64,000 bases of DNA from Thermotoga sp. Mc24 (GTDB lineage Bacteria > Thermotogota > Thermotogae > Thermotogales > Thermotogaceae), in assembly GCF_000784835.1 (NCBI RefSeq), contig NZ_JSFH01000009.1, forward strand, positions 1-64,000, written 5' to 3'. Within the stretch, counting starts at the first letter, position 1. Each line of letters opens with the position of its first letter. This document shows positions 231 to 50,664 of this stretch, piece by piece. The notes beneath the pieces are model-generated. The model did not search any database. It was not told the origin of the DNA and saw only the letters and a program-made list of their open reading frames with translations. The position numbers and the translations under genes were made by a program.

Positions 231-237
231 AGTTACT

Positions 238-414
238 GACCCGACGGAGGCGCGCCCGAGATGAGTAGGCTGTCCCATCAAGGGAGGAATCGGGGGCAGC
301 TGAAAGGCGAGGGCGCCGAAGGGTGCAGGGTTCCTCCCGCTCTGCATGCCTGGGGGTATGGGGAATACCCATACCACTGTCACGGAGGTCTCTCCGTGGA
401 GAGCCGATCGGGTC
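238..414 (+). ncRNA. Lysine riboswitch (L-box) aptamer upstream of asd
   Basis: The leader shows the L-box layout: a closing P1 helix (GACCCG at 238-243 with CGGGTC at 409-414), the conserved GAGATGAGTAG loop-E region in P2, the GGGGTATGGGGAATACCC arm, and the final GGAGGTCTCTCCGTGGAGAGCC arm. It agrees closely with the T. maritima asd lysine riboswitch as I remember it from crystallography. Lysine binding should stabilise P1. The following operon makes lysine, so feedback repression is the expected logic. The aptamer call is strong; the ligand is inferred from family identity and gene context. Confidence 0.95.
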
Positions 415-439
415 TGGAATCAGAAAAAGATTTCAGACC
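411..439 (+). promoter_or_regulatory. Hairpin competing with riboswitch P1
   Basis: GGTCTGGAATC (411-421) can pair with GATTTCAGACC (429-439), an 11-bp stem with one G-U pair and a 7-nt loop. Its 5' strand uses the last four bases of P1, so this hairpin and the ligand-bound P1 helix cannot form together. It is the likely switching element. How it communicates with the terminator at 447-473, which it does not overlap, is not clear from the sequence. Confidence 0.55.
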
Positions 440-48111: not shown

Positions 48112-48516
48112 ATGGCTGAAGTGATAGGATACTACGGAACAGGAAGGAGAAAGACCGCTGTTGCGAGAGTTTACCTGAGACCGGGAGAAGGAAAAGTGAA
48201 GGTCAATGGAAAAGAGTACGACAGCCTGAATGACTATTTCAAAAATCCCGCGTGGACAAAGCACGCGATAGAACCCCTCGAAGTAACCAACACACTTGGC
48301 AAATTCGATCTTGTCATAAGGGTTAACGGTGGAGGTTTGTCTGGCCAGTCCGGTGCCGTGAGGCTTGGCATCGCCAGAGCCCTCCTTCAGTACGACCAGA
48401 AGCTGAGGCCTGTTCTCAAGAAATACAAGATGCTCACAAGGGATCCAAGAGAAGTGGAAAGAAAGAAGTACGGCTTGAAAAAGGCAAGAAGAGCTCCTCA
48501 GTTCTCCAAGAGATGA
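48112..48516 (+). CDS. rpsI: 30S ribosomal protein S9
   Basis: [28 protein letters not shown] at the start and the C terminus [14 protein letters not shown], whose last basic residues contact P-site tRNA, identify S9. It has 134 residues. GGAGGGAG precedes the ATG. A terminator follows. Confidence 0.97.
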
Positions 48517-48541
48517 TTTTGCTGGCAGCAGACAATCGCGG

Positions 48542-48570
48542 GGTCCGGTTCTCCCGGACCTCTCTTTTTC
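48542..48570 (+). terminator. Terminator after rpsI
   Basis: GGTCCGG (48542-48548) pairs with CCGGACC (48554-48560) around a 5-nt loop, followed by TCTCTTTTT (48561-48569). It ends the rplU-rpsI operon just before the transposon remnant. Confidence 0.88.
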
Positions 48571-48605
48571 TGTTTATCGAACAAAGTGCAAAGAAAGCAC
48601 CATAA

Positions 48606-48668
48606 CGCAAAAGTGCCTCGTCTAAACTCATCAAGAAAGAGTTCCCGCAAATCAAAGATAAACTTTTC
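48606..48668 (+). pseudogene. Fragment of IS200-type Y1 transposase (tnpA)
   Basis: One frame, open from a TAA at 48603-48605, reads R-K-S-A followed by SSKLIKKEFPQIKDKLF. This matches the C-terminal region of Y1 transposases (S-x-x-x-I-K-K-x-F-P-x-L-K-x-x-L-W). The usual W-G-G and YFV-TVG end is not preserved and the catalytic HUH and Tyr regions are absent. A 21-codon remnant only. Confidence 0.6.
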
Positions 48669-48711
48669 TGCTTTGAGGTTCTTAGGGAGCAATCTCAAAG
48701 GAAGGATAAGG

Positions 48712-48930
48712 ATGCTCAAAACCTACAAATTTTGTATCTACCCCACGAAAGAACAAGAAAAAAAACTGGCTAAACATTTTGATCACACCTTGCGAAGAAT
48801 TTGGCCAGGTATGGCTTGATGCCATCAGTAGGGGGGAGCCGTTCGAATTCATGCCCGTGGACCGTGCTCTGGCGGAACCCAAAATGGGTCTACGAGCCAT
48901 CACGGGTTGAAGCGGGAAGCGCACCTTATG
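48712..48930 (+). pseudogene. tnpB remnant: N terminus joined to C terminus
   Basis: ATG at 48712 (after AAGGAAGGATAAGG) starts MLKTYKFCIYPTKEQEKKLA, the standard N terminus of IS605-family TnpB. After about 25 codons the sequence changes to DHTLRRIWPGMA and stops at 48819. From about 48821 another frame reads SRGEPFEFMPVDRALAEPKM, like TnpB C-terminal tails, and the final tail GLKREAHLM-stop (ending about 48932) is in a third frame, so a frameshift lies near 48905. RuvC and zinc-finger regions are missing. No functional nuclease can be made. Confidence 0.7.
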
Positions 48931-48966
48931 TAAGGTGTGGTAGTTTACCAACCGAGGAGTGAGAGT

Positions 48967-50664
48967 GTGATTCCTCGAGAGGTCATCGAGGAAATAAAAG
49001 AAAAAGTTGACATCGTAGAAGTCATTTCAGAGTATGTGAATCTCACCCGGGTAGGTTCTTCCTACAGGGCTCTCTGTCCCTTTCATTCAGAAACCAATCC
49101 TTCTTTTTACGTTCATCCGGGTTTGAAGATATACCATTGTTTCGGCTGTGGTGCGAGCGGGGATGTCATCAAATTTCTTCAGGAAATGGAAGGGATCAGT
49201 TTCCAGGAAGCGCTGGAAAGACTTGCCAAGAGAGCTGGGATTGATCTTTCTCTCTACAGAACAGAAGGGACTTCTGAATACGGAAAATACATTCGTTTGT
49301 ACGAAGAAACGTGGAAAAGGTACGTCAAAGAGCTGGAGAAATCGAAAGAGGCAAAAGACTATTTAAAAAGCAGAGGCTTTTCTGAAGAAGATATAGCAAA
49401 GTTTGGCTTTGGGTACGTTCCTAAGAGATCCAGCATCTCTATAGAAGTTGCAGAAGGCATGAACATAACACCGGAAGAACTTGTCAGATACGGTATCGCG
49501 TTAAAAAAGGGTGATCGATTCGTTGATAGATTCGAAGAAAGAATCGTTGTTCCAATAAAGAACGACAGTGGACATATTGTGGCTTTTGGTGGGCGTGCTC
49601 TCGGCAACGAAGAACCAAAGTATTTGAACTCTCCAGAGACCAGGTATTTTTCGAAGAAGAAAATCCTTTTTCTCTTCGATGAGGCGAAAAAAGTGGCAAA
49701 AGAGGTCGGTTTTTTCGTCATCACTGAAGGCTACTTCGACGCGCTCGCATTCAGAAGGGATGGAATACCAACGGCGGTCGCTGTTCTTGGGGCGAGTCTT
49801 TCAAGGGAAGCAATTCTGAAGCTTTCGGCGTATTCGAAAAATGTCATACTGTGTTTCGATAATGACAGAGCAGGCTTCAGAGCCACTCTCAAATCCCTCG
49901 AAGACCTCCTTGAATACGAATTCAACGTGCTTGTAGCAACCCCCTCTCCTTACAAAGATCCGGATGAACTCTTTCAGAAGGAATGGGAAGGTTCGCTGAA
50001 AAAGATGCTGAAAAACTCACGTTCGTTCGAATATTTCCTGGTGACTGCTGGTGAAGTCTTCTTTGACAAAAACAGCCCCGCGGGTGTGAGATCCTACCTT
50101 TCTTTCCTCAAAGGTTGGGTCCAGAGGATGAGAAAGAAAGGATATTTGAAACATGTAGAAAATCTCGTGAAGGAAGCTTCGGCTTCTCTCCAGATACCAG
50201 AAAACCAGATTTTGAACTTTTTTGAGAGTGAAAAGTCTAACACTATGCTTGTTCATGGATCCAGGTCGTCAAAGGTTTACGATGAGGGAAGAGGACTTGC
50301 TTACCTGTTTTTGAACTACGAAGATTTGAGGGGAAAGATTCTGGAGCTGGACTTAGAGGTACTGGAAGATGAAAACGCGAGAGAATTTTTCAAGAGGGTT
50401 TCATCCGATGAAGATTTAAGCGAAGCTATAGAAAACTTTCCAAAAGAGTTGAAAGATTGGGTTTTTGAAACGATAGAAAGCATTCCTCCTCCAAAGGATC
50501 CCGAGAAATTTCTCGCTGACCTCTCCGAAAAGTTGAAAATCCGGCGGATAGAGAGACGTATTGCAGAAATAGATGAGATGATAAAAAAGGTTTCAAACGA
50601 TGAGGAAAGGCGTCTTCTTCTCTCTATGAAGTTGGATCTCCTCAGAAAAATAAAGAGGAGGTGA
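48967..50664 (+). CDS. dnaG: DNA primase
   Basis: Makes RNA primers for replication. The CHC2 zinc domain ([26 protein letters not shown]), the primase catalytic core, and a TOPRIM motif ([12 protein letters not shown], then CFDNDRAG) are visible. The C-terminal region would bind DnaB. The start is GTG at 48967, with GAGGAGTGAG upstream; 565 residues. The transposon remnant ends only about 20 bp before it, so the native promoter region may have been displaced. Confidence 0.95.

Follow-up and report, generated by a model that had tools for sequence, protein, structure and literature searches.

Immediately upstream of the primase gene dnaG lies what remains of an IS605 element, and the locus raises the question of whether its 3' end still provides an omega-RNA (ωRNA) that a TnpB nuclease encoded elsewhere could use. 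The locus belongs to the window, the whole 64,000-nt stretch of DNA analysed here, which comes from a Thermotoga-like genome assembled in 12 contigs (the source genome, G000). An initial annotation had proposed that the remnant supplies an orphan guide RNA. The element is very probably an inert relic, namely an eroded and probably immobile copy of an IS605-group element with tnpA and tnpB, whose ωRNA core is damaged. It belongs to a known kind, of which it is an unremarkable, decayed example.

An IS605 insertion between rpsI and dnaG

The insertion was called from an alignment of the rpsI–dnaG interval in seven congeneric genomes. The left neighbour of the element is a gene that, from its sequence, we take to be rpsI (ribosomal protein S9), and its operon ends in an intrinsic terminator that is kept in all seven genomes. 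The interval is compact and empty in the five relatives G001, G002, G004, G005 and G006, and it is filled in G003, which is identical to the window over the compared interval. As the source genome and G003 are identical there, selection at the insertion is not measurable. The element, flanked by two essential genes, is a single IS605 insertion of 371 bp (48578–48948) that adjoins the motif TTTAT, its target or presumed transposon-adjacent motif (TAM). The same motif stands before the left end of family copies in G003 (L048), on contig C4 of the source genome (L017), in G086 (L164) and in G001 (L052 and L050), and it also precedes the left ends of most solitary elements. The locus therefore has the fixed short target at the left end and the lack of a long target duplication by which IS200/IS605 insertions are recognised. 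The annotation of an IS605 remnant is borne out by its blastn copies, the five empty sites and the identical filled site in G003; the bounds first given, 48580–48945, needed correction at both ends. The features of the locus are collected in the table.

Features of the rpsI–dnaG locus, in window coordinates
Feature	Position	Strand	Basis or remark
rpsI	48112–48516	+	ORF
rpsI-operon intrinsic terminator	48540–48569	+	alignment; kept in the five relatives with an empty site
TTTAT, target or presumed TAM at the left boundary	48573–48577	+	precedes other family copies
Left end of the element (~25 bp); 3' arm of the left-end hairpin deleted	48578–48602	+	87–94% identity to intact left ends
tnpA (Y1 transposase) remains: KSASSKLIKKEFPQIKDKL, internal deletions, then the TnpA C-terminus	48609–48737	+	tblastn, E 2e-13
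tnpB codons 1–26 (MLKTYKFCIYPTKEQEKKLAKHFDHT)	48712–48789	+	Pfam PF12323, E 4.8e-9; 81–89% DNA identity
tnpB 3' end (120 bp), out of frame with the 5' piece, TGA at 48908–48910	48791–48910	+	sequence comparison
ωRNA scaffold remnant (122 nt)	48827–48948	+	model R1, 111.4 bits, E 1.5e-22
Stem 1 and loop position: lacks one C, right arm with C to T, GGAGC in place of the loop GGAAC	48831–48844	+	
Stems 2, 3a, 3b and inner hairpin, all paired (CCCG/CGGG, CCGTG/CACGG, CTC/GAG, ACC/GGT)	48854–48916	+	
Stem 4, the right-end hairpin (CGCACCTT ATGT AAGGTGTG)	48920–48939	+	
Right terminus TTTAC, carrying the 3' half of the pseudoknot	48944–48948	+	
Would-be guide CAACCGAGGAGTGAGA, holding the dnaG Shine-Dalgarno sequence	48949–48964	+	sequence; target search
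dnaG (primase), GTG start	48967–50664	+	ORF; start aligned with relatives

The fragments were mapped against two relatives, a complete element in G086 and a tnpB-only element in G003. The element of G086, a genome of the same order (contig C1, locus L164rc 991–2751), carries a left end, a Y1 tnpA, a tnpB and a right end, and its tnpB product is 84% identical to the G003 protein. In the Thermotoga copies of G003 and G001, a 405-aa tnpB is accompanied by only the C-terminal part of tnpA; these copies had suggested a tnpB-only parent, a view that was corrected by the complete G086 element and by the tnpA fragment of the window itself. This fragment, of about 60 bp, lies at 48609–48665, gives a blastn match of 90% identity (48609–48666), matches the open TnpA frame of the G086 element in tblastn, and is followed by a further C-terminal portion up to about 48737. 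Between tnpB codons 1–26 and its last 120 bp, an internal deletion has removed about 1.0 kb, and the 3' piece (48791–48949) matches other IS copies of the genome's own assembly at 83–90% identity (blastn). The window thus holds the remnant of a member of the group and no working member, with a hairpin at the right end only, a fragment in place of the Y1 tnpA gene and two pieces of tnpB that are out of frame with each other. The initial annotation was right that the transposase and most of tnpB are lost; it missed the persisting tnpA pieces and the first tnpB codons, and put the surviving tnpB 3' end at about 115 bp. As the left-end hairpin is lost, the copy is probably immobile.

These fragments are best explained by the insertion of an element with tnpA and tnpB in the lineage that gave rise to the source genome and G003, at a point 3' of TTTAT that lies after the rpsI terminator and before the dnaG ribosome-binding site. 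Deletions then took the greater part of tnpA, some 1 kb of tnpB and an arm of the left-end hairpin. In the 3' scaffold that is left, the peripheral stems still pair, while the TnpB-binding core, formed by stem 1 and the pseudoknot, is degraded. A different outcome of such deletions would be a non-autonomous mobile element, internally deleted and mobilised in trans by a Y1 transposase, like MITEs or the palindrome-associated transposable elements (PATEs), which arose in this way in Haloquadratum (PMC3119063). Pieces of both ends are indeed left around the internal deletion, and the source genome has a Y1 TnpA gene. This gene, however, adjoins a TnpB whose locus gave no match to the scaffold model R1 (see below), each genome has a single copy, and this copy lacks the 3' arm of its left-end hairpin and carries a mutated right-end site. 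PATE-type elements are multi-copy, share an internal junction and have both palindromes, whereas a single locus with its left palindrome lost was found here, and such mobility is highly improbable.

Scaffold identity and a damaged core

Rfam gave only chance matches over the remnant, so that a dedicated covariance model had to be built; at gathering thresholds, the stretch contains no match other than a distant lysine riboswitch (window 237–415, RF00168, E 2.6e-26). Related tnpB loci from several phyla have in common a 3' block of 97–138 nt with a GGGCRGGRAC hairpin, a CCYG/CRGG pairing and a terminal hairpin, after which come TTCAC and a non-conserved flank. In an alignment of 14 copies, 94% of the cells are paired, changes on both sides of a pair occur in 36 cells (13.5 in shuffles), and the covariation score is 0.308, as against 0.05–0.11 when the partners are slid. 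The structure rests on this covariation, since thermodynamic folding alone does not separate the scaffolds from shuffles (z -0.2 to -2.7). Model R1 was made from ten tnpB-linked scaffolds, with the window copy left out. The window matches it over its full length (model positions 1–127), with a score of 111.4 bits against the 146–156 bits of tnpB-linked Thermotoga copies. The match is far above chance, and the scaffold spans the tnpB 3' end and the right end, with the guide directly after the terminus, as in an ωRNA; the initial identification of this 3' end as ωRNA scaffold therefore stands.

The peripheral parts of the scaffold are intact. Stems 2 and 3 and the right-end hairpin are all present, and the palindrome at 48922–48937 is, as first described, perfect, with arms CACCTT/AAGGTG around the loop ATGT and a stem that reaches 48920–48939. 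The core is not. In stem 1, one C-G pair has gone with the deleted C, and the alignment of the window reads x::x| (at best |::-| after moving the gap), whereas the stem is fully paired in nine of the tnpB-linked copies, the tenth being a degenerate copy in G087. Stem 1 is absent from the minimum-energy fold predicted for the window, but present in the folds of all five tnpB-linked copies for which one was computed. The pseudoknot, GAA/UUC in its usual form, has become GAG/UUU and would consist of G.U, A-U and G.U, as against three Watson-Crick pairs in eight of the ten tnpB-linked copies; the terminus, TTCAC in nearly all of these, is TTTAC. Part of this decay is common to others: a further relic also has GGAGC, and one degenerate G087 copy also ends in TTTAC. 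Compared with intact copies, as the initial annotation had proposed, helices are thus broken in both parts of the core, which is the result it had named as telling against its own reading.

The weight of these changes can be judged from the ISDra2 system, in which UUC near the 3' end (-5 to -3) forms the pseudoknot with GAA in the stem-1 loop (PMC10097598). In a deep mutational scan of this system, pseudoknot deletions and inactivating truncations were depleted, while the stem that overlaps the right-end hairpin, which is named stem 1 there, is highly tolerant of mutation (PMC11844463). Since this hairpin is the most tolerant region in ISDra2, the perfect palindrome is, by analogy, the least diagnostic part of the scaffold. 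G.U pairs can be tolerated, and the tolerance seen in ISDra2 may not be transferable to the family of the window. A right-end hairpin by itself says little about whether an ωRNA works, since the palindrome can remain perfect when the core of stem 1 and pseudoknot has failed.

A search with the full element shows three decayed insertion loci in Thermotoga: the window, C4:162.3k (G001:138k, G003:805k) and C2:9.6k (G001:442k, G003:493k). All three keep the right-end scaffold, which is suggestive only. Selection for the ωRNA was considered as the cause and dropped: three loci are too few, the core is damaged in the window, the terminus is mutated in a second relic, and the ends may survive just because the deletions are internal. 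The second locus is one insertion site (L049/L269 at 805 kb on G003 C1, L015 at 162 kb on C4 of the source genome, L050 at 138 kb in G001) with an orthologous scaffold (4 differences in 128). Its left part is tnpB-less in G003 and holds a decayed tnpB in the source genome and G001, a contrast that suggests internal exchange between element copies.

Guide, transcription and supply of TnpB

A guide would come, as had been foreseen, from the dnaG leader, its first base being 48949. No promoter match was found on the + strand between 48450 and 49100, and the rpsI terminator, directly before the insertion, is the sole + strand signal upstream. This absence does not rule out an RNA, since read-through from rpsI into dnaG across the remnant is plausible and TnpB can process the 5' end of its own ωRNA (PMC10278001). 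A search of the seven genomes for TTTAT followed by guide bases 1–15, in which at most three mismatches were allowed, returned no target besides the locus itself, with TTTAC, in the source genome and G003, and a G004 site with the poor motif TCTTT.

Cognate tnpB genes exist, the gene being an intact 405-aa ORF in G001 and G003. In the source genome, its 3' 225 codons are open at the edge of contig C10, and a matching left-end half at C9:418265–418482 is taken as the other part of this copy; a second cognate copy, on C3, is frame-shifted. The source genome has three further long TnpB frames (411–418 aa), at loci that R1 does not match.

The proposal of a functional orphan ωRNA holds that the remnant is transcribed, bound by such a TnpB and directed to cut a match of the dnaG leader next to TTTAT. 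The presence of cognate tnpB genes (truncated by a contig edge in the source genome) agrees with it, and so do the full pairing of stems 2–4, the strong R1 match that remains and the near-perfect scaffolds of tnpB-less elements in related genera. A usable guide is nevertheless left unsupported by the damage to stem 1 and the pseudoknot, the lack of a + strand promoter and the lack of a TTTAT-plus-guide target. Furthermore, the TTTAC terminus is a TAM with one mismatch before the remnant's own guide, so that the RNP, if active, might cleave the locus from which its guide comes. This reading is very unlikely.

The remnant could instead act as the dnaG 5' UTR, in which TnpB binding or folding of the scaffold would mask the Shine-Dalgarno sequence inside the guide. 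Its exact position, with GAGGAGTGAG contained in the guide, would fit such a TnpB-responsive leader. There is also little space for a dnaG promoter after the rpsI terminator at the empty sites, so that dnaG may be, and probably is, transcribed by read-through from rpsI. The insertion is, however, found in two genomes only and its TnpB-binding core is damaged, and a regulatory role of this kind is scarcely credible. If the element is an inert relic, as preferred here, no working RNP would form, and any RNA from it would be at most part of the dnaG leader transcript. The decay of an IS605 element is thereby documented next to an essential gene, with little import for the window itself.

Elements without tnpB in Thermotogota, and known systems

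Across Thermotogota, R1 finds many scaffolds with no tnpB in the ~1.6 kb upstream. G026 carries a 247-bp IS605 element without tnpB (L270, C3:189009–189255), a copy of it at a different site that is 99% identical over 227 bp (L277, C4:339474–339700), and further copies, less similar, at C7:43909, C3:190177 and C27:38044. The best of these scaffolds score 138–155 bits, on par with tnpB-linked copies. Homology of the C3 element's surroundings to a congener's genome ends about 10 bp before its left boundary. The multi-copy group of ~247 bp (L270, L277, L251, L249 and L252) is characterised by a left-end hairpin, a TATAAT-like box, a 5' hairpin and a near-perfect ωRNA scaffold ending in TTCAC, and each copy has its own flank and hence its own guide. 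In several copies, the TATAAT box lies 26–39 bp before the scaffold, and a hairpin of 6–7 bp stands directly upstream of it, whose arms vary in sequence while their complementarity is kept (GGTTGCA/TGCAACC, GGTCATA/TGTGACC, ACGACC/GGTCGT, GTTGCTA/TAGTAAC). As a TATAAT-like box also precedes tnpA in the complete element of G086, these elements look, from their sequence, like the element's own promoter fused to an ωRNA. The window copy is not one of them.

Other derivatives of the family also occur. L239 (G008 C51:16783–16918, minus strand) is a solitary scaffold with no recognisable left end and a perfect TTGACA-18-TATAAT 35 nt upstream; with its terminus TAGTCCAT, the pseudoknot would be GGA/UCC and fully paired, and it is possibly a settled stand-alone ωRNA gene. 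In L247 (G048 C4:47708–47843, minus strand), the left end and TATAAT box are fused directly to the last tnpB codons and the scaffold, a separate internal deletion that led to the same result. At G026 C12:28002–28090, a left end (~50 bp) is joined directly to a right end (~44 bp) with no scaffold, a terminal-only, PATE-like derivative.

It is conceivable, if on balance doubtful, that this family has repeatedly yielded mobile elements without tnpB whose sole recognisable cargo is a directly promoted ωRNA with a site-specific guide. Such parasites of a parasite would rely on TnpB supplied in trans to cut the empty site again once they had excised, which would keep them from being lost, and the window would hold an eroded relic of their parent element. 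No description of ωRNA-bearing elements without tnpB was found in the literature, the coverage of which was incomplete, so that this is weak evidence. If they are active, the guide RNA can be separated from the TnpB nuclease, and a single TnpB could compel a host to retain many non-autonomous elements; the two nearly identical G026 copies at different sites make this separability directly testable. The tnpB-less ωRNA elements of related genera merit a study of their own, and as a by-product they outweigh the window copy.

Among known systems, the complete G086 element of the IS605 group has in common with the window the TTTAT-adjacent left end, the Y1 tnpA, the tnpB subfamily and the scaffold, its right end being TTCAC; the window, in contrast, keeps only fragments of both genes and no left-end hairpin. 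With the Thermotogota elements such as that on G026 C3, the window has in common the element family, TTTAT, the scaffold, the right end and the absence of tnpB, but it has none of their intact left-end hairpin, TATAAT box, 5' hairpin, several copies and (in the best of them) intact scaffold. The PATEs of haloarchaea are likewise IS605 derivatives that lost their core by internal deletion (PMC3119063), and a 489-bp PATE with a highly expressed end has been described (PMC10544981); they keep near-terminal palindromes and are multi-copy and mobile, whereas the window has a lone copy from which one palindrome is missing. The ωRNA (reRNA) of ISDra2 TnpB (PMC10097598) is different in sequence and subfamily, and its stem 1 and pseudoknot have only degraded counterparts in the window. 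Both scaffolds overlap the tnpB 3' end and the right end and have the guide directly after the terminus. By the mapping inferred here, they are also alike in the order of stem 1, stems 2–3 and right-end hairpin, and in a pseudoknot that joins the loop of stem 1 to the 3' end.
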